A DNA stretch of 61,944 nucleotides, taken from contig RBZT01000610.1 in the NCBI GenBank assembly GCA_003693705.1, forward strand, positions 1 to 61,944, given 5' to 3'. The translations under genes were made by a program, and so were the position numbers. Of this stretch, positions 4,669 through 31,769 are shown piece after piece. The stretch is from Polymyxa betae. Taxonomy: Eukaryota; Endomyxa; Phytomyxea; Plasmodiophorida; Plasmodiophoridae. The notes below the pieces were generated by a model that worked only from the letters and a program-made list of their open reading frames with translations, was not told the origin of the DNA and searched no databases. The stretch's first letter is position 1, and each line of letters begins with the position of its first letter.

Positions 4669-6333
4669 CATGGACATCGAGGGCCGACATTGGAAGAATT
4701 GAACCCTGACACCTCTGATGTGCCCGACGTTGTGATGCATACGGGAGGAAGAACGAAGCGTGTGCTTGCTGAGCCAGATCGCTTCACGTTTCACCAAGAG
4801 GACGAAGAGGCACGGAGGCGAATGAAGCGACTTCGCGCCTATCAAGTGACTGACGAACCTGCAAGCATCACTGAAGCACTCGAAGACGATGTCTGGCGAG
4901 CAGCTATGCAAAGTGAGTATCAATCCCTAGTGAAGAACGGAACCTGGGACCTCCTCAAGCTCCCACCGGGGCGGAAAGTCATCCAAGGCAAATGGATTTT
5001 CAAAGTGAAGACCGGAGCAGATGGCGAAGCCATTTGAAAGAAGGCCCGCTTCGTTGCGAGAGGCTTCACGCAGAAGAAAGGCGTCGACTACCAACAAACA
5101 TACTCCCCGGTGATCTCGATGACTTTGTTACGGCTGATGCTGACAATCGCTGCTCATTACGACCTTGAAATTGTTCAGATGGATATCGACACTGTTTAGT
5201 TGTATGGCGAACTCTCGGAGGATATCTATCTCCAACAGCCTGATGGCTTCCGCAAGCGTGATGAACATGGAGCCGAACTAGTGTTCCGTCTCCACAATTC
5301 CCTGTAGGGGCTTAAGCAGAGTGGACGTTGCTGGTGGACAAATCTGCATGTTATCTTCTGAGCTTGAAGTTTAGAGGCAGCCCCAGTGAGCCATGTCTTT
5401 ACTACAAACCAACCAAGAAAGGCCGGCTCATGATCGCTGTTTATGTTGACGATCTTGTCGTTGCCGGACCGAGTCCTGGACACATCGCCCATATCTTTGC
5501 CGAACTGAAGAATAAGTACAGTATCAAGCCTGCGGAGGAGCTTACATAAGTTCTTGGTATTCAAGTCACTCGTAATCGTGCTGAACGAAAGATCTTTCTT
5601 TCACAGGAAACGTACGCCCGGAACATGCTGAAGCGGTTCCAGATGGAAGATGCTAATGCTGTCAAAACCCCTGCTGATGACACCACATCCAGCTCAATTG
5701 CAGACGAGCCCGCGCAAGACTATCCATATCGTGAATCGATCGGATCTCTTATGTATCCTACGACAGCTACTAGGCCGGACCTATCTTTCGCAGTCAGCAC
5801 ATTAGCTCGTCATTCGCATAAGCCAACTCGTCGTAACGTTATGGGAGCCAAACACGTATTCAGATACCTGAAAGGCACAGTCCAGACGGGCATCATATTG
5901 GGAGGGGGCGACTTATTACTGGAGGCATACGCCGATGCCGATTATGCTGCCGACAAAGCCACTCGTCGTTCTGTCTCTGGAACCCTTATCAAGTTCGGAG
6001 GGGGCCCTATCGTCTGGGCCAGCCGACTACAGTCCTGCGTTACTCTCTCAACCGTTGAAGCTGAATACGTTGCTTTGTGCTCAGCAACGCAAGAAGTTAT
6101 TTGGCTCCGCCTCTTACTGGCTGATCTGGGTTGTCCTCAAGCAGATCCGACCCATCATGGAGGATAATCAAGGGACCATTGCACTAGCTGAGAGTGTTCA
6201 AACCAGCAGACGTTCGAAACATATTCAAGTTCGTTTTCATTTCGTTCGGGAGAAGGTCCTATCTAAAGATGTCATTCTCCAACATGTTCCATCATGTCAG
6301 CAGTTAGCTGATGTTTTTACCAAGCTCGGATGA
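4669..6333 (+). pseudogene. Ty1/copia Pol remnant: RT and RNase H
   Basis: This is the reverse transcriptase and RNase H end of a copia polyprotein. Visible blocks in order: WRAAMQSEYQSLVKNGTWDL (RT entry), GKWIFKVK, FVARGFTQKKGVDY near 5055, a DIDT block near 5185, the active-site strand YVDDLVVAG near 5445, YPYRESIGSLMY with RPDLSFAVS at 5720-5800, YADADYAADKATRRSVSG (RNase H) near 5930, STVEAEYVAL near 6050, and SKHIQVRFHFVRE near 6215. The gene is broken. There are stops at 5036-5038 (TGA), near 5200 and 5308, and after 5549, and frameshifts near 5325 and 6160. Integrase, protease and Gag are missing. No LTRs could be paired. The remnant belongs to a different copia lineage from the one at 13.7-22.5 kb, judged by sequence differences. 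Confidence 0.9.
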
Positions 6334-13976: not shown

Positions 13977-16575
13977 TAGGGGTGTTCACGGCCCCGGCTA
14001 AGCAATTTCCCCAAGCCGGCTATCTAGCCCCGGAACCTGAGATCTCCTCTGTTGGTTTTCTAAGGCCTATAATTTTGGATTTATCATTCTGCAATAGTCT
14101 TCAGACTTTCTATGTCATTTTGATTATTCAGTTCAGGATTTATCGAAAATTTTGGAAATTGAAAATTGTTAAATAAAATGCGGGATGAAATTAATGCGAA
14201 TTGCCGTACAATTCATCTCATTCTCGTGGAGTGAGAAAATTGTGTCTGGCTTGAGTTTGCGCCCGGCTGATGGATTGCAATGTCGAACCTGTCCTCAACG
14301 GCGGCTTGCCAATCAACGAGTCCAGTAGTGACCTCGATAGTGACTGCATCGAAATGCCATTGAGCGCGCGCAGCTCTGCTCCGTCCATCACTGTATCCGC
14401 TACTGGGCGCTCCACCAAAAAGCGGCGTCATAAGACTTCTTGGGTTTTTAATCATTTCGCTATTGATGAAAAATCTGGCAAAAGGCATTGCGCTGTTACT
14501 GGATGTAAGTCATCGTTCTCTTCTTCAACGGGAACGGGGACCTTGGGAAGGCATCTATACAAGTGTCATAAGATATCATCATCCGGTGATGCATTTACGC
14601 TCGATCCTTTACAAACAACATTTAATTCTGAAGGATCTGCGCTTGCTGTAAGTGATGATCGGCATGCATCAAAATATTGTTGTGTTAATGACTTCTTGCA
14701 AAGGCTCATAATCAGCTAAACGATGATTCGCGAAAAAATAAATTCGATGCTTTAATTAAGTTCATTGTTGACGACAAGCAAGCATTCGCTTTGGTGGAAA
14801 AACGTTCTTTCCAAGATTTTTGTAAGGCTCTGAATAAGTTCTATAAGCTTCCATGCAGGTCGACTGTATGCCGAGGCATTGCAGACGCATACGACGTTGG
14901 CCGAGTGAAGCTACAGTCCGTACTGGACAACATTCCTGGTCGAATCGCTATGACAGCCGATGGCTGGTCTTCGCGGGTGATGCGAGGATACTTTGTCGTT
15001 ACTGCTCATTGGATTGATGAGAAGTGGAAGATGAATTCGTGTGTTCTAGATTTTCTGTGTTTCCCTCCGCCACACAATCAATGGACCACCTCCGAAATTA
15101 TTCTGAACGTCATTCACTCCTTCAACATCCAGACAAAAGTCAGGTCTATTACTATTGACAGCGGATCGGAAATGCCACCGGCGATGCGTATCGTTTGCGA
15201 TGTCCTCGACACGAAATATTCCCTGAACCTGAATGAAGATTGGCATTTAAGATGTGTCTGCCATATCATCAATCGTGCAGTAATCGATGCCCAATCCTTA
15301 ATGAAGAAAGAAGTGGAATTAGTTCGGACCATGCTAAAGGCAATCCGGTCATCGTCAGCAATGAGAGAAGAATTCAGGACAGTGCAAATCCGTCTTGGCC
15401 GTTCGATTATCAGTGAGGTCCCTTCGTTAGAGGTTGAAACGCGCTGGAACTCTAAGTTCTTGATGATCAAGAGCTGCTACGGTAGCCAATTCATTTTAAG
15501 TTTATAATCGCTTAACGTTTTGTTCAGAGCTCCAAGATGTCTTTGAAGCATTATGTAACACGCCCTCATTTCGAAAACAACTGACCGCACTGACTGCCTT
15601 TGACTGGAGAGTTTTGAAATCAATGCAAAATTTCCTAGAGCCGGCGTATAACTGCACCACAAAAGCCAGTGGCCGCAATTACAGCACACTAGCTTTGCAG
15701 TCTCTAATCTACGAGAGTCTAATGGAGCATTGCCAACGAACTATAGATGGCACTACAGTAACTGGTAATGAATGCGTCAAATGGAATCATGTGTTACTGA
15801 ATGCACTAGGTTTCACAACGCCGACTTCACAAGCCGCAGCGAAAGCTTTGAAACAGAAATTGCTAGCTTACCACCCGTATATGAACAGCAGTTTGTGCTC
15901 GCTAGGTGTTGCACTGGATCCATCAATTCCAAACATCGACGACGACGTTCCTCGAATGAAAGATCTGATTCGCAGTATTCTTGAAACAGATTACGGGTAT
16001 GTTGCTGATGCTGTTGATGTGCAGCGTCCATCATCTCGCAACTCTGACCTTATATCGCTATCTCGGCGTGCAAGAGCCCCATCAGCCTCCATTGTACACC
16101 ACGGTGATGAGGTCGATGATTATTTCTCTTTCACAAAATCGGCTGATGATGCATGTGATGATGTCCTGCAGTGGTGGGATTCAATCGGACAAAGACGGTT
16201 TCCTCGAGTGGCACTCCTTGCCCGTGATACATTAATGTGCATGGGTTCATCGGTCCCATCTGAATCGGCGTTCTCTGACAGTGGCCATTATGTTGTTGGG
16301 TACAGAGCGCGTTTAAAAGATGACAACATCTCAATGATGATGAAGCTGCGCTCTTGGAATCGATTGCTTGAATTAATGTGATAATTGTTCAATGAGTAAG
16401 AAATACAAATTTTTCATTGCCTGTCATTGTATATTTTAGATAGTGAAAGGTTGAAAGGAAAGCCGGCTAATCGGTCGGCTAGCCGGTTAATTCGAGAGAT
16501 TACCAAACTTGACAATAGCCGGCTATCATGGATTCTCTAGCCGGCTAGCCGTAGCCGGGACCGTGGACACCCCTA
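13977..16575 (+). mobile_element. hAT transposon, 2599 bp, 8-bp target duplication
   Basis: The ends are inverted repeats: taggggtgttcacggccccgg at the left against the complement of ccgggaccgtggacacccct at the right, with two mismatches. The target duplication ggtgtcgg is exact at 13969-13976 and 16576-16583, and removing the element restores the copia strand at this point. The region inside the right end (16460-16560) carries several copies of agccggct, probable subterminal binding repeats. It encodes a BED-finger/hATC transposase on the plus strand. Confidence 0.95.
14270..16381 (+). CDS. hAT transposase, probably with one or two short introns
   Basis: The N-terminus has a BED zinc finger at about residues 60-105 (SWVFNHFAI, then HCAVTGC and HLYKCH). 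The RNase H-like catalytic domain follows, with TADGWSS (first Asp), TIDSGSE, LRCVCHIIN and VETRWNSKFLMI. The hATC dimerisation region ends the protein (WWDSIGQRRFPRVALLAR, SSVPSESAFSD, RARLKDDNISMMMKL). A 46-bp GT-AG intron at 15482-15527 joins ...SCY to ELQDVFEAL in frame. Near 14690-14721 the frame changes. Either a roughly 33-bp GT-AG intron (gttaatg...atcag) or a one-base frameshift explains it. If both introns are real, the gene may be intact. The protein would cut and paste its own element through the TIRs at 13977 and 16575. Confidence 0.85.
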
Positions 16576-17607
16576 GGTGTCGGGCATTCGTGCACGTACC
16601 AGATGAGAAGCGCCGTAAGTTCGATCCGAAGGCAATTCTCGGAATCTTCCTTGGATACGCTACCGGGCAAAAGGGATACGTGGTGCAAGACCCTGAAAGT
16701 GGCAAGATAATATTCAGCCGCGACGTGACATTTGATGAGAATCAACTACCAGCTAAGAAGTCAACGGAGAGTCCTAATCTTGAGGTCATCGAACGTCAGG
16801 TTAGCGGGTCGATCAACGAGACGATAGATGACGAGCAGCCGGCGGAAACGAATGACGAACCAGGGCAGCCGCTGATCAATGACGAAGCTGAGCAGGTTGA
16901 TGAAGACAACCCCGATGCACCGCCGAGACGATCTTCGAGAGTAACGGGGCAGCCGGCGCGATACGCCGACGGACAAGCAGACGAATTGATACGAAAAGGA
17001 CAGAGCAAGTCTTCTGGACATGCCGCTTTCTTGGTAAAAGAACCGAAACGCTATGATGACTCCATTGACGGACCAGACGCCGCCAAATGGAAAGAAGCTA
17101 TGAAACAAGAATATCAGTCACTGATGAAGAACAAGACTTGGAGCCTTACCAAACTACCACACGGGCGGAAAGCGATTAAATCCAAGTGGGTATTTAAGAT
17201 CAAAACTCTAGAGGACGGCACCGTGGACCGCTCCAGAGCGAGGCTCGTCGCACAAGGCTTTTCGCAACGCCATGGTGTTGACTACGACGAGACGTTCTCG
17301 CCGGTTGCTACGAAGGCCACGATCAGAATTCCTATCGGTTTGAAGTCGCAGGGGTGGTACGTACGGCATGTCGATGTCGATACAGCTCATCTCAACTCGG
17401 ACGTTGACACCGAGCTTTACATCCTGCAGCCGAAGGGATTCGAGCAATACGACGATCAGGGAGAGATCCTGGTATGCAAGTTAATAAAGGCAATATACGG
17501 CTTAAAACAGGCTGGCTTAGCCTGGTATGATCACCTTTCGAGACTGTTACTGAAGTTGAAGTTCAGGAAGTCGCGTCACGACCCTTGTGTTTTTATCCCT
17601 GATACGC
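16576..17607 (+). pseudogene. copia Pol: post-integrase linker and RT front half
   Basis: Picks up exactly at the duplicated target site with CRAFVHVPDEKRRKFDPKA and ILGIFLGYATGQKGYVV, the conserved region after copia integrase. An acidic linker follows, then PPRRSSRVTGQPARY. The RT begins at about 17085 with WKEAMKQEYQSLMKNKTWSL, KSKWVFKIK, ARLVAQGFSQRHGVDYDE, HVDVDTAHLNSDVDTELYI (first catalytic Asp region), and KAIYGLKQAGLAWYDHL. It is open throughout until HDPCVFIPDT, where the piggyBac-like element interrupts. This half has no frameshift, so the copia element was little decayed when it was hit. Confidence 0.9.
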
Positions 17608-17848
17608 ACTGCGTAGAGTGAATATTATTCACTCTTCACTTTTGAGTTTCCTGGAATTTAAGGGATCGGCCTTGGTGAATTTTCCAAGCCCACTCTTATG
17701 ATCTACTCGCATTCCCGAATCGATTGATCTAAAAAAATCCGAAAACGCTCAAATGAAACCTATTAGAATCAAAGGCTAGGGTCTAGGGTTTTTTGACCCA
17801 CGGAATATTAGGAAATTGCGTTAAGATTCACTCTTACGAAAAAAGCGT

Positions 17849-20800
17849 TTATTCAATACGCTGGCCACGAGATCGACGTGGTTGTTCGTCTGGGGGATTA
17901 ACGGTAGGGGTCTCTGGACGTTGGCGACGGCTCCGTTCTGCTCGAGGCGTTTCCGCCCTAGCATTGCGACCTCTACGGCCACGCTGCCCAGGGTCTCGTT
18001 TTGGACGAACCCTTTCCCCCAGGCGATCAACAGAATGGATCAGATCCTTACAGGTGACGTGCCAATTACCCGCCAACTGAACACATGCAGTAACGACGCA
18101 AACGGTGCAGTGAGCTGTCGTTTGCATACCACAAATAGGACAATGACGAATATTTTTGGTTGCTAACCTGTGATGGACGTCTTTACGGAGCCTCGTTTGC
18201 TTCCCAATTGCTCCATTTAGCCACTTCAAAATATTTCTCACAGGCGCCTGAGGAATGTTGTCGACGGGCGCTTCGACAGTCACAGGCCGTACCACTGCCT
18301 GAGAAGGTGCAGCCTCAATAACGTCTTCCCTAATCGCTATGAAGTCAGATGACGGATCCCATTTCTCAACAAAATCTTGCAGAAAATCAGCGAAGGATCC
18401 CAACTTATTCAAGCGCTGCTTCAACTGTTTGTAGGAAGAGAAGTTCGGAAGCTCGTGCTCTATCTTCAGCAACCGCAAAACCATGTGCGAATTCATTAGC
18501 CCAATCATGACAAAGCGAATGAAAATGAACGCTCGAGGTGATAGCCAACGGAAATCGACCTTGACGTTTTTCAAGATTCGGGAGACAACATCCTGCCCAC
18601 CTTTGAAATTATTCCAGTGTGAAACAGCAAAAAAAGTCAGATCATGAGCAGCAGGCAGTGGAGTACCTCTTGTCAGACGAGCATCTTCAAAGGCATTCTG
18701 CAACTTTCTCCAGATTTGCAGCGTACGCAAATCGACAGCGAGACCAATCTCACCAGGGCGTAGATCGATCGGATCTGAGATATCGCTTCCGCTGAAAAAT
18801 TGCAGATGTTCAGCACATTTCGTGAGAATCATCGAAGAGAATAGACGGCGGCATTCCGAGCTTACTTGTACAAGAACAGAGTAAATGATGCGGTTGGTAG
18901 TTGAGACTACAAACAGCAGGTGATCAACACCAGTAACAGCCAAATGATGAAGCACCTGGGATCGATATCCCGCTGTCCAAACTAATTTCTTGAACAGAGG
19001 CCGGTCGTTTGATGTGACAAACAGGCGCTGGTTCAGGTTGTCACAAATCTGCCTTGCTGCGTCAAGACGTTATTCTGGCTCAGTAACCGTTTGAGCTGTT
19101 GTCATGGTCTTCAGTTCCAACACACAAACAATTGCTGACGTTTCTTCCATCTCAGGTGGTACCAGCACCAGTGCACCATCGATGGATGTAGCAAGAAGAT
19201 GGTCGTTTGTGCCTGTAATCGATGATTTACGGCACAGAAGACCACGCTGAACGATGTTGCCAACGATTTGAAAACCTTGACTATGTGTTTGAAAGAAAGA
19301 TGGGAGCGCAGCTCGAATATTCGATTCGTTAACGCTTCCGATTTTCATGTTGGAACTGGTGAAAGGCTTCATGAACCATGTCTTCATTAGAGCAGCAGTC
19401 AACCTAACCGTACGATCTGCAATGGGAAAAAGAATACGCTCGATCAAATATTGCTTAGTGCCCGAAAATGGTTGATTCCGAGATTTACAAAGCGCTTTAA
19501 GTTGATTTGCGGTCTTCGTGGTGAGTTTCTCCCGAGCAAATGCTGGATCATCCGCATGGCCTCGAATACCGATTGTAGAAAGCAATTCTCTTTCGACAGG
19601 GGTGTTAAAACCCTCGAAACAGGTGGTTAAAACCGTATGAGAAACAATCCAACCCGTAACAAATGCCATTCTACACCGCCTTGGCTTCGGGTGTCTGATT
19701 CAGTACATTCGTTTAATGTGGATTGGATCAGAACATGACCAGGCTCAGATACCTCAAACGAGCCAGCACGTTTCGGACGCAGACACCAGACGGATAACCG
19801 GGGAGCTGTGGAGAATATCAGAGCGACCCGACCGCGACCACCTCGGTAGGCGATGGCATAAACCCAGCGGTCAGAGAACTTCCTTCGTGCGACATACATG
19901 CTCTTCGCGCCTTTTTCGACAACATGGCGTCCGAATCCTTGGCCGGTATCACCGAAAGTGAATGGGCCTGATTTCATTCGCTTGAACGTGCCTATCAAGT
20001 GAAAGCCTTGTTGGCAGAGGTATTCAACAAGTCCTGGATTCATATATCCACGATCCATGGCGATAATTTCGTTACCTCCATGTACATGCTCCGGTAAACC
20101 TGCGGATTGCATCCACATAAGAACAATCTTGACAATTTCAGAGAATTTCTCCCCCTTTCCCAGTAACCTCATGCCCAGAACAATAGAGGAAACCAGAGAC
20201 ACGGCATTACTGGAAACAACTCCAAAGGCCTTCTTAGGATTGTTGATTCTCTGAAGTCCTAAGGCTTCAGAGAGTGCTGATGTAATGCGAAACTGATCAT
20301 CATCAAACGATATTGAGGTCACTCCGCGAATGTAAGCCAGTCTACAAGAGGCTGTTGTCAACGCTTGTTCTTCACCACGAATTGTACTGTCAACGCTGAA
20401 AGGAGCCTTCCAGCTGCCGCTGTTATTGCTTTCTCGAACAGATTTCAGACCCGTCATGACTTTCTCAAAAGAAGAGCGCTGCAGCGTGGAAGCAACAGGA
20501 TACAATCCCCTTTTCTCCTCATCAAACAGCCTCGTTGGTGTCGTACAATAAATTGAGAGATATCCTAGAACCTTCATAAATCCAATCAGATCTTTGCCGG
20601 AAACAGCATCAGAGCCTGTGGAAATAAAATGATGTTAGGGTTAGGGTTAGGGTTTGGTAACGTTACCTGATGGTAAGCCTTCACGAACAGCCGTCAGTAG
20701 ATTGCCAGTAATGGCAGACAGAAAATAGTTGGTGACGTCATCAAAAGAAACATTGGCGTTCGTCTCTTTGTTGAACATATTTCTGACATTCTAACAAACC

Positions 20801-20976
20801 GCTTTGATTTCAGTTTGTGCTTGTTCTAGTAACATCCGGTCCATCGCGGAGGTTACAATCGAAAAATCGTCCATTTGTTGAGCGGTAACGTTACTCCACT
20901 CACAGGTGTCCTCTTCAGGACCGACGCTAGAAGTCTCCGACCCAGAATCATCGAAATACTCTGCAAGAGAAGTCAT
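17849..20976 (-). pseudogene. piggyBac-like transposase with internal SAP and PD-(D/E)XK nuclease
   Basis: Minus-strand order: acidic N-terminus (MTSLAEYFDDSGSETSS); a 51-bp intron (20616-20666); DDE part 1 with SISFDDDQFRI, RINNPKKAFGVVSSNAVSL and IIAMDRGYMNPGLVEYLCQQ; the strand RGGRGRVALIFST; a SAP-like helix pair TANQLKALCKSRNQPFSGTK near 19500; a YqaJ-type nuclease with SVNESNIRAALP, ATSIDGALVL, CVLELKTMT and SQVLHHLAVTG (19350-18890); DDE part 2 with HWNNFKGGQDVVSRIL near 18600, like piggyBac GG-V-D; a Cys/His cluster RHCPICGMQTTAHCTVC near 18130; and a basic tail. Breaks: a TAG near 20790, a frameshift near 19650 and a TAA near 19072. Domain names are from motifs read by eye. The piggyBac link rests on the DD...GG-x-D order and the C-terminal Cys cluster. 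Confidence 0.75.
20616..20666 (-). other. 51-bp intron containing a telomere-type repeat
   Basis: On the minus strand the donor gtaacg follows CCATCAG (GLPS) and the acceptor tttccacag precedes GCTCTGATGC (SDA). Inside are three CCCTAA units (plus strand 20634-20655). Splicing joins REGLPS to a coding frame that continues through VSGKDLIGFMKVLGYL. Confidence 0.7.
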
Positions 20977-21237
20977 ACTGGCTGTACGAAAATACTCACA
21001 AATGCAGCTGCGACGACGAGGTCAAAAATGGGAATTGCGCGGAAACTTTTTTGCGGGGAAATGTTTGGGTCAATCCCTGGGAGATTGCAAAAATTCAGTG
21101 TAATTGGATTAATCGTGGCATTGATTTTATTTTTCGAAATCGACCCATTTTCAGCACTCAAGAGTGAATAATATTCACTCTTAAGCATTAAAACCAGAAA
21201 CACTGCGAACCCCGTAGAATGAATATTATTCACTCTT

Positions 21238-22260
21238 ACTGAATCAAGGTTATCAATAGCGCTAGAGTTTATCTGGCGACCTACGTGGACGATATAATTA
21301 TAGCATCAAAGTTACAGGAAGCTGTTACCGCCGTCGAAGATGGGATGGAGCAGCATCTGAAGATCAATCGCCTAGGAGAGATAAGACATTTCCTAGGATG
21401 GAAGGTCACCAGTTTAGAAAGCTTCGTGATCATCTCCCAAGATTCGTACGTGCTGCAAGTTTTGACGAAATTCGGTATGGAAGATTGTAACCCGGCGACG
21501 ACACCAGGTGTACATGGACAAGCAAGTCAGCAGGACAAGCAAGAAGAGGAAGACACTAACTTTCCTTATCGCGAATGCGTTGGAAGTTTGATGTATATGG
21601 CGAACAGCACGCGTCCTGACATCGCATACGCGGTCCATCACGCAGCAAGGTTCGTCGCTGATCCAAAACGTGAACACATAAAAGCAGTGAAGCGGATCTT
21701 ACGATACTTACGAGGGACGATCGACACAGGCATCATCTTCAAACGTGACAAGAGCAACGGCCTGACCGGATACGCCGATGCCGACTTTGCTGGGCACGAC
21801 GGCGATTCTCGCTCAACATCTGGCTACATTTTTATGATGAACGGGCCGATTACGTGGTCATCAAGACGCCAACGGCTTACCGCTCTCTCGACAACGGAGG
21901 CTGAAATATATGCATTAGCAGAGGCAAGCAAGGAAGCGATGTGGATTGTCAACTTACTGAAAGACATGGAAGTGCGACCGCACGAGGCTTCGATCAAGAT
22001 GATGGAGGACACGCCGCCTGTTACGCCTTAGTCACCGGGGTGAAGGCGCCGACGAGAACGAAACACCTGGCAGTCCGGATCGGGTTCGTACGTGATCTGA
22101 TCAGCAACAAGGTCATCGAAATGGAGCGTTGTCCGACGACGGCGATGCTCGCCGACCCGCTGACGAAGGCGCTCGGGCCAACCGAGTTCAGACGAAAGAT
22201 GGCGACAATCGTCTCTATCGATATGAATGACAAGGGCTGCGCGCGCACTTTTAAGGGTGC
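21238..22260 (+). pseudogene. copia Pol: RT active site and RNase H
   Basis: Resumes after the insertion with VYLATYVDDIIIASKL (the Y-V-D-D active site at about 21280). It continues with INRLGEIRHFLGWKV, FPYRECVGSLMYMANSTRPD, KRILRYLRGTIDTGI and the RNase H blocks GYADADFAGHDGDSRSTSGY, LSTTEAEIYALAEASKEAMW. After 22031 the end of RNase H (RTKHLAVRIGFVRDLI, MLADPLTKALGP) is in another frame, so one frameshift lies near 22000-22030. Together with 16576-17607 this makes an almost complete copia RT-RNase H. Confidence 0.9.
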
Positions 22261-22272
22261 CAAGTTCAAGTC

Positions 22273-22530
22273 GGCCGAGGGAGAGTGTAAGATTACCACC
22301 TGTGACGGGGAGCGGCCTCCTCTTGTTGGTTGCGCCACCTCCAACTGTTGGCGACTTGACGGTCGTACCCTACCTATACGATGCGATTGACTACCTTTCA
22401 TACAGTCAATCGCGACCTATTTGCAGTCTGTCATAGACTGACGAAAAGATCTGGAAATAAAGACCTATTGTTATTCGCTATTTTACCGCTAGACTGTCGT
22501 TTAAACCAAAGCTTTTACATTTCTGTGTAC
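22273..22530 (+). repeat. polypurine tract and probable copia 3' LTR
   Basis: The run ggccgagggagag (22273-22285) follows the end of RNase H and directly precedes tgtaagattacc, a TG start typical of an LTR. No second copy is present in the window and the CA end is not identified, so the length is a guess. Confidence 0.45.
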
Positions 22531-23282
22531 CGATGCGCCCCAACGAAGTTGTTCGACATCAAAACAGCCATCTCTTCCCGATAGCACAGAAGCTTGACCA
22601 TATCTCATTCAAAAAGACTTTGAAAGCCTTGAACAACCAACCAGCGCAATCTTCTGATTTTCTGCACGATGGAACTCGCGTATTGTTGCTGATGAGTGCA
22701 TCCGACGCACTGAAAGGGCCTTTACCCAAACGTCATCCCGCATTGCTTACGTTGCCGGTCAGACAATAATCTCCTTGGATGACGACCAATACCGAATACG
22801 GTCTGCTCTTTCTGAGGCAATGGGCTTTGTTCGGATCAACAATCCTAAGAAAGCCTTCGGGATTGTTTCTACAAATGCAGTTTCTTTGATAAGCTCAATG
22901 GTTATCAGAATGCGTTTGATCGGAAAAGGGGAAAGCTTTGACGATGTGGTTCGGATTATCTTAATGTGGATTCAAGGCGTTGATCTGTTATCCCAAGTTC
23001 GCGCATCGGGCGAGTTAATGTGCCTTGATCGAGGTTACCTAAGGCCATCTTTGATTGAGTTCCTAATGAATGCTGAGTTTTCACTTATCGGTACTCACAA
23101 ACGCGTCAATTCTTATCCCTTCACCTTTGAAACGCACGCAACCGACTGACTCAACGGGTCGTCGAGGAAATTGGCTGCAAGAACATTTATATCGCCAGAA
23201 AGAAATTTGGTGACAGATTTCTCTACGCCATTGCATATAGATCTGGCAAGGGTCGTGTTGCCACACTTATCTGCACAAACCC
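22500..23282 (+). pseudogene. piggyBac-like transposase fragment, copy 2
   Basis: The plus strand carries the DDE part 1 of the same family as 17849-20976. Blocks are VYRCAPTKLFDIK (matching IYCTTPTRLFDEE), ISLDDDQYRIRSALSEAMG (first Asp), RINNPKKAFGIVSTNAVSL, GKGESFDDVVRIILMWIQ, LMCLDRGYLRPSLIEFL (second Asp) and, after a frameshift, NIYIARKKFGDRFLYAIAYR. The SAP, nuclease and C-terminal parts are absent. The piece has at least three frame changes. It sits next to the copia 3' end and runs opposite to copy 1. Confidence 0.85.
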
Positions 23283-23303
23283 CCGCTTAGGTTACATATG
23301 CAC

Positions 23304-23478
23304 CGGGCGAGTTAACTTGCCTTGATCGAGGTTACCTAAGGCCATCTTTGATTGAGCTCCTAATGAATGCTGAGTTTTCACTTATCGGTACTCACAAACG
23401 CGTCAATTCTTATCCCTTCACCTTTGAAACGCACGCAACCGACTGATTCAACGGGTCGTCGAGGAAATTGGCTGCAAG
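23304..23478 (+). repeat. 175-bp direct duplication of 23007-23181
   Basis: The segment spanning the second catalytic Asp region of the copy 2 transposase occurs again 297 bp downstream with only a few differences. It abuts the copia gag at about 23480. Confidence 0.9.
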
Positions 23479-31500: not shown

Positions 31501-31675
31501 CAAAAGAGATGGCTCAGAACGCAGCCTGTGAGAGTGACCGTCGGGTCAGGAATTTCACGGAAACGTTTTTGCGGGTTAGGGTTTGGGTTAATACGAAACT
31601 CAGTGCAAAATTTCATGGACGACAAAGTTACCGTTGCTCCGATTTTTATTGTCAAAGCTGGCTCATTTTGAAGGC

Positions 31676-31750
31676 TAAGAGGGAAAATTATTCCCTCTTA
31701 GCGTTTCTGAGGCGAAGTTGCGAACTCCGAGGAGCAAATATTATTCCCTC
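31676..31750. repeat. terminal palindromes of piggyBac-like copy 3
   Basis: Inner palindrome 31676-31685/31691-31700 (taagagggaa with ttccctctta). Outer, decayed palindrome near 31732-31750. They occupy the same places as 21160-21182 and 21216-21236 of copy 1, separated by a similar spacer ending in gcgaac(t/c)ccg. Confidence 0.75.
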
Positions 31751-31769
31751 ATATTGCCTTAGGGATAGG

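Follow-up and report, generated by a model that had tools for sequence, protein, structure and literature searches.

The terminal repeats of piggyBac transposons, which move by a cut-and-paste mechanism, begin with CCC or CCY. The cysteine-rich domain (CRD) of piggyBac transposase binds a 19-bp palindrome as a dimer (PMC7351741), and in piggyBat a unit of motif plus palindrome is repeated on one end of the element (PMC11707139). We analyzed a stretch of 61,944 nucleotides from Polymyxa betae (contig RBZT01000610.1; this whole stretch is hereafter called the window), in which a transposon is inserted that belongs to a divergent lineage of the piggyBac superfamily. The results support an insert between the second and third catalytic acids (D2 and D3) of its transposase, namely a PD-(D/E)XK nuclease of the YqaJ/lambda-exonuclease type, and we are highly confident of a doubly nested order of domains: DDE part 1, lambda-exonuclease part 1, SAP motif, lambda-exonuclease part 2, DDE part 2 and zinc domain. 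A lambda exonuclease with a nested SAP between D2 and D3 is lacking in piggyBac and piggyBat, from which the present lineage also differs in having a palindrome of its own in each subfamily, TTAT as the duplication in the window, and sequences scoring below the Pfam cut-off.

Partly similar cases are known among transposons. In P element transposase, a GTP-binding domain is nested in the RNase H-like domain, after the second acid and before the third, a place equivalent to the one occupied here by a nuclease instead. DEDDh nucleases, which have a fold different from that of the lambda-exonuclease type, form another case. Such a DEDDh nuclease has been reported in piggyBac and P elements (PMC3627910, citing Kapitonov et al.). 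ISL2EU elements (PHIS/Harbinger-like) resemble the present one in being DDE transposons that also encode a YqaJ exonuclease, but theirs is a separate open reading frame next to a DDE transposase (THAP/HTH) that belongs to a different superfamily (PMC4482050, PMC9179366), whereas here nuclease and transposase form one protein in the relatives P0002 and P0006 and one frame in the genomic copy L031. The function of the ISL2EU protein was called unknown in a 2015 survey (PMC4482050). Lambda Exo and LHK-Exo, of the YqaJ family, share with the insert the fold and the order of motifs; here, in contrast, a SAP follows motif I, the nuclease is part of a transposase, and no gene for an annealing protein lies adjacent. 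Judged by titles and opening lines of abstracts, no piggyBac element of this kind was listed in the literature searched, which holds few subscription papers and, as far as we know, no Repbase Reports, a likely outlet for a description of this sort.

The window copy of the gene is decayed, with an in-frame TAG at 20791-20793, a frame change around 19645-19692, where the homology moves from the open reading frame 19630-20634 to that at 19073-19699, and an in-frame TAA at 19070-19072. The strings that an earlier reading of this DNA, made from the sequence only, had quoted as transposase and nuclease motifs were all located on the minus strand within 17849-20976. Genome searches gave 31 matching stretches with DDE part 1 and 48, some on further contigs, with P0003. 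In L031 a single frame of 698 residues covers the end of DDE part 1, the insert and the zinc cluster. Among proteins, each search scoring the 8000 candidates that shared most words, the first search retrieved P0002 (1074 residues, with 42% identity to the L031 frame, 92% of which is covered) and P0003 (568 residues, starting at the end of motif I and without DDE part 1), the second P0006 (1221 residues, 27% identical to P0002) and the third, with an alignment as query, P0007 (292 residues). Aligned in two parts, of 445 and 609 columns, the window gene shares 61% and 56% identity with P0002. Viral contigs were scanned twice without a relative coming up, and carriage by viruses was rejected on this ground.

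P0002 and P0006 display the full domain order in single open frames across both junctions, and thus are intact relatives of the kind that the sequence-only reading had proposed to look for; they also bear out its placement of the nuclease between D2 and D3. Among 18 genomic copies mapped on P0002, 13 extend past residue 500 and all 13 contain the insert; for L033 the fetched stretch takes in just the beginning of the insert (up to residue 559), and other DNA interrupts L040 and the second window copy. The five shorter copies are L015, L021, L023, L039 and that at 22516-23431 of the window, three of them lying in short fetched stretches. DDE part 1 joined directly to the GGxD part, which would have told against that placement, was seen in none of the 18 mapped copies or the proteins found. 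An artefact, whether from chance insertion of a nuclease gene or second element in a dead transposase or from an assembly collage, would fit the frame change and stops of the window copy and the missing DDE part 1 of P0003, but it is scarcely credible given the single frames across both junctions in P0002 and P0006, the frame across the insert in L031 and the insert in 13/13 copies; continuous frames and constant junctions led us to reject a random fusion or nested second element. It is also highly improbable that the nuclease attacks other DNA (competing elements, invading DNA or extrachromosomal copies) and is cargo by fusion only, as such cargo has no need for a place inside the catalytic domain, yet this place is constant in the 13 copies that run far enough.

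The nature of the insert, which has about 330 residues, emerges from fold and profile comparisons of the relatives, in agreement with the nuclease type proposed from sequence. The match to the lambda Exo fold spans residues 14-219 of lambda Exo, almost the whole protein, and the motifs W24/R28, E85, D119, E129, K131 and Q157 are present in order in a colinear alignment. Against phage exonucleases, the profile of the insert family scored 40.4, with 200 block shuffles reaching at most 28.9; alignment A5 gave P 9e-4 (probability 23%), and the smaller alignment A7, without P0002 and P0006, a weaker P 0.011. Motif I alone scored 29.5 versus a shuffle maximum of 25.0 (0/200). Alignment A8 (DDE part 1), intended as negative control, matched nuclease motif I at its C-terminal end and was therefore counted as evidence that motif I lies before the SAP. 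The latter is recognized by Pfam in the window itself (25.3 bits vs cut-off 23.9) and in relatives (E 1.2e-9 to 5.9e-4). Its presence had been correctly predicted, but its proposed position in front of the nuclease had to be rejected: since motif I lies ahead of the SAP and the structural match to lambda Exo runs across it, the SAP is nested within the nuclease.

Other searches were less informative: PHROGs and NCBIfam gave weak exonuclease matches only (best E 0.0054), Protein Data Bank (PDB) sequence searches with single proteins found no transposase and no nuclease, and a whole-genome scan with Pfam YqaJ had no match but missed known copies as well. The nuclease assignment is weakened by the Foldseek overlay of the insert on lambda Exo (TM 0.35/0.48, root-mean-square deviation 15.5, 284 columns), by the best Pfam YqaJ score, which in P0003 remains under the cut-off of 22 (20.7 bits, E 5.4e-4; six more matches in five copies have E 0.03-0.12), and by the absence of Pfam YqaJ matches in P0001, P0002, P0006 and L027 and in the window pieces, for which the assignment is drawn from the relatives.

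Conservation, counted in decayed genomic copies, extends to the residues of the active site: E in 11/12, D in 10/11, E in 11/12, K in 11/12, R in 11/11 and Q in 10/11 copies, together with W (10/14) and R (12/14) of motif I, the latter corresponding to lambda R28, which is required to recognize 5'-phosphorylated ends (PMC3118119, PMC9841436). Codon positions were compared in ten copy pairs, nine of which had data for the nuclease core, by dividing the changes at third positions by the average of those at first and second positions. Ratios were 2.20 (W1-L032), 2.32 (W1-L036), 1.82 (W1-L031), 1.63 (L031-L034), 1.86 (L037-L035), 1.43 (L035-L040) and 2.22 (L032-L036), a third-position excess comparable in size to that of the DDE parts. 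Two of the nine pairs count against this pattern, L037-L040 (1.04) and L035-L027 (0.72) showing no such excess; ratios near 1 are expected of dead copies. Judging from these sequence patterns, the nuclease appears to be kept as an enzyme rather than a scaffold and is very likely to be catalytically competent. The contrary view, in which the insert is a DNA-gripping scaffold with weak or lost nuclease activity, could invoke the SAP, a DNA-binding motif. It could also invoke the insertion domain of piggyBac, which contacts target DNA (PMC7351741). We regard a scaffold as improbable because it needs no conserved nuclease residues, and the acidic and lysine residues are kept in 10/11 to 11/12 decayed copies and also in P0006 at 27% identity.

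The piggyBac affiliation, likewise put forward by the sequence-only reading, is sustained by the structure model of P0002, which matches the piggyBac transposase fold (DDBD plus RNase H-like core), by a DDD triad with D3 after GG, by the 4-bp duplication and by the anatomy of the ends. D1 is found in 14/15 copies, D2 in 13/14 (the exception being L031, with a frame change at that position) and D3 in 9/12, and the two glycines of GGxD in 11/12 and 12/12. A PDB profile search with DDE part 1 had a single unrelated match (E 0.058), and one with the full profile found SAP structures; the homology of the Cys/His cluster is weak, with a match of that full profile to the piggyBac CRD (6x67, E 1.1) and zf-Tnp_2 in P0006 (E 0.0085).

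The element interrupts a Copia pol reading frame, now split into 16491-17618 and 21243-22028 on the plus strand. A closely related Copia copy of the same genome (L043, contig C327) has no element at that point and, point differences aside, differs from the interrupted site by the element plus the second TTAT. Both elements resolved at both ends have a 4-bp target-site duplication, TTAT in the window and TTAA on either flank of L031, the tips of which are CCCTGATC. The exact TTAA target is thus seen in one of the two; TTAA also precedes the single 5' end of L037, and those of L033, L034 and L039 have no TTAA in front. The 5' end, with its 13-nt tip, 21-bp palindrome and second palindrome 33-44 bp inward, is clear in 6/13 stretches (window, L039, L031, L033, L034 and L037), degraded in L035, L041 and L063, and not seen in L032, L036, L038 and L040. 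The 3' end, with an 18-nt tip before the palindrome, is clear in 3/6 stretches (window, L031 and L040). The palindromes are specific for subfamilies (AGAGTGAATATTATTCACTCT, ACCCGTTATATTATAACGGGT, GCGGTATATAATATATACCGC, ATGGTATATTATACCAT) within a constant layout, those of L037 and L040 having true symmetry in the inner 17 bp only. Terminal repeats of the CCC/CCY type with subterminal palindromes match the layout of piggyBac and piggyBat at the level of sequence anatomy and therefore constitute a further piggyBac trait; by analogy, the zinc domain may bind the palindromes of the element.

Several observations pull away from this affiliation. Pfam DDE_Tnp_1_7 matches the D2 block only, with 12.1 bits in the window and at best 13.7 in P0002, under the curated cut-off of 22.4, and has no match in P0006; the whole P0002 model had no Foldseek match at E<=0.001 and a mean pLDDT of 53, low in the DDE halves; the third acid is not D in L036 (N), L037 (C) and L038 (N); and the window duplication is TTAT instead of TTAA. 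A whole-genome scan with DDE_Tnp_1_7 had no match either, as was the case for control genomes, so absence is not established.

When searched with up to two mismatches, the window palindrome occurred 12 times, spread over four contigs (20 strand matches; backward control 0). Contig C10, retrieved by the palindrome pattern, was rejected as an element, being a tandem array; by eye, it has units of about 55 bp (L062, around 110-420), several with a near-identical element-end palindrome. L063 (contig C473, 156-982) has one copy and two copies of the variant palindrome AGAGGGAATATTATTCCCTCT as borders and is possibly a non-autonomous relative. In L038 (contig C530), the most divergent copy, other palindromes (TTTATCCTACCAGGTAGGATAAA, TTTAAAAGCGCTTTTAAA) lie upstream of the gene at 5850-5960, and GGVN stands where others have GGxD.

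Judging from the combined architecture, moving the element and processing the broken DNA may be tasks of one and the same protein. In the mechanism we propose, the zinc domain would bind the palindromes of its own subfamily, while cutting at the CCC tips and integration with a TTAA-like stagger of 4 bp would fall to the RNase H-like core, as they do in piggyBac. The nuclease, attached at the canonical insertion-domain region beside flanking DNA, would act as a 5'-to-3' exonuclease dependent on 5'-phosphate and resect the chromosomal ends that excision leaves behind; repair from a homologous template would follow, by which the element may be restored at the donor site, with the SAP keeping the enzyme on A/T-rich DNA. 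The data show the architecture, the conservation of both active sites, the anatomy of the ends and the target duplication; the enzymatic activity, the binding by zinc domain and SAP, and the resection step are inferred. The whole explanation, from architecture through donor-end resection, seems to us moderately likely, while donor-end resection as the main role of the nuclease is put forward tentatively, and more doubtful still is a coupling of excision with immediate 5' resection at the donor break by two catalytic nucleases of one chain, one nested in the other.

This proposal has difficulties: no excised donor site was observed; no annealing partner is encoded, the 252 and 273 bp beside the gene leaving too little room; lambda exonuclease forms a trimer and piggyBac works as dimers; and the two both-end-resolved elements have intact tips and exact duplications. 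Tips and duplications indicate that the nuclease would not chew the integrating transposon ends, so that the remaining free 5' ends would be those of the donor chromosome. In Tn7, TnsA is found beside TnsB, and the nuclease could similarly act in the transposition reaction itself, trimming or cutting the 5' non-transferred strand or opening a hairpin. We consider this unlikely, and just as unlikely the independence from the piggyBac hairpin route that it implies for the lineage: the nuclease does lie within the catalytic domain, close to the insertion domain, the part of piggyBac that touches target DNA, and the 4-bp stagger is retained in 2/2 elements, but piggyBac alone already makes both cuts.

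Table 1. Positions of the element and its parts in the window.
Feature	Positions	Strand	Remarks
Whole element	17597..21249	-	3653 bp, one gene; both ends, 4-bp duplication and empty site
Target-site duplication TTAT, left copy	17593..17596
Target-site duplication TTAT, right copy	21250..21253
3' terminal tip CCCTGATAC...	17597..17614	+	18 nt, then palindrome
3'-end palindrome, 21 bp	17615..17635		Candidate binding site of C-terminal zinc domain, role by analogy with piggyBac
5' terminal tip CCTTGATTC...	21237..21249	-	13 nt, then palindrome
5'-end outer palindrome	21216..21236
5'-end inner palindrome	21161..21181		34 bp inward of outer one
Transposase gene, decayed	17849..20976	-	ATG at 20976, TAA at 17849-17851
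GT...AG intron-like stretch, 51 nt	20616..20666	-	Putative splicing
DDE part 1, D1 to D2	20041..20304	-	D1 in DDDQF, 20290-20304; D2 in DRGYM, 20041-20055
Nuclease motif I (TRSQGGVEWHLLRVGL)	19645..19692	-	Counterpart of lambda Exo W24/R28; colinear profile alignment
SAP motif, nested in nuclease	19430..19525	-	Pfam SAP E 1.1e-5
Nuclease core: G-x-x-NE, S-x-DG, E-x-K, R-x-Q-x-x-HH, last strands	18860..19342	-	IGSVNES 19322-19342; ATSIDG 19175-19192; VLELKT 19106-19123; YRSQVLHH 18944-18967
DDE part 2, GGQD and helices after it	18467..18616	-	GGQD at 18590-18601; D3 = last codon
C-terminal Cys/His cluster, CRD-like	18032..18142	-

Within the gene, the intron-like stretch holds a telomere-like repeat of three CCCTAA units. 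Two further decayed copies of the family lie in the window, at 22516-23431 (plus strand) and 31591-25832 (minus strand); the second has the nuclease insert and 5'-end palindromes around 31675-31755, its matches being interrupted from about 29544 to 26314. Beside the Copia element, at 14692-16381 (plus strand), there are two overlapping frames that we take to resemble a hAT-type transposase.

To our knowledge, dealing with donor breaks is usually left to the host by DDE transposases. A lineage with a complete phage-type end-resection nuclease in its catalytic domain, and a SAP within the nuclease, offers a direct test of whether transposons control donor-site repair and a lead on the reason for YqaJ proteins in ISL2EU elements; as a self-contained fusion, it may also be of interest for genome engineering. 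If the proposed mechanism is true, the seamless cut-and-paste of piggyBac would here become a repair-coupled, copy-restoring transposition, and the independent use of YqaJ in ISL2EU would represent convergence on the same solution.
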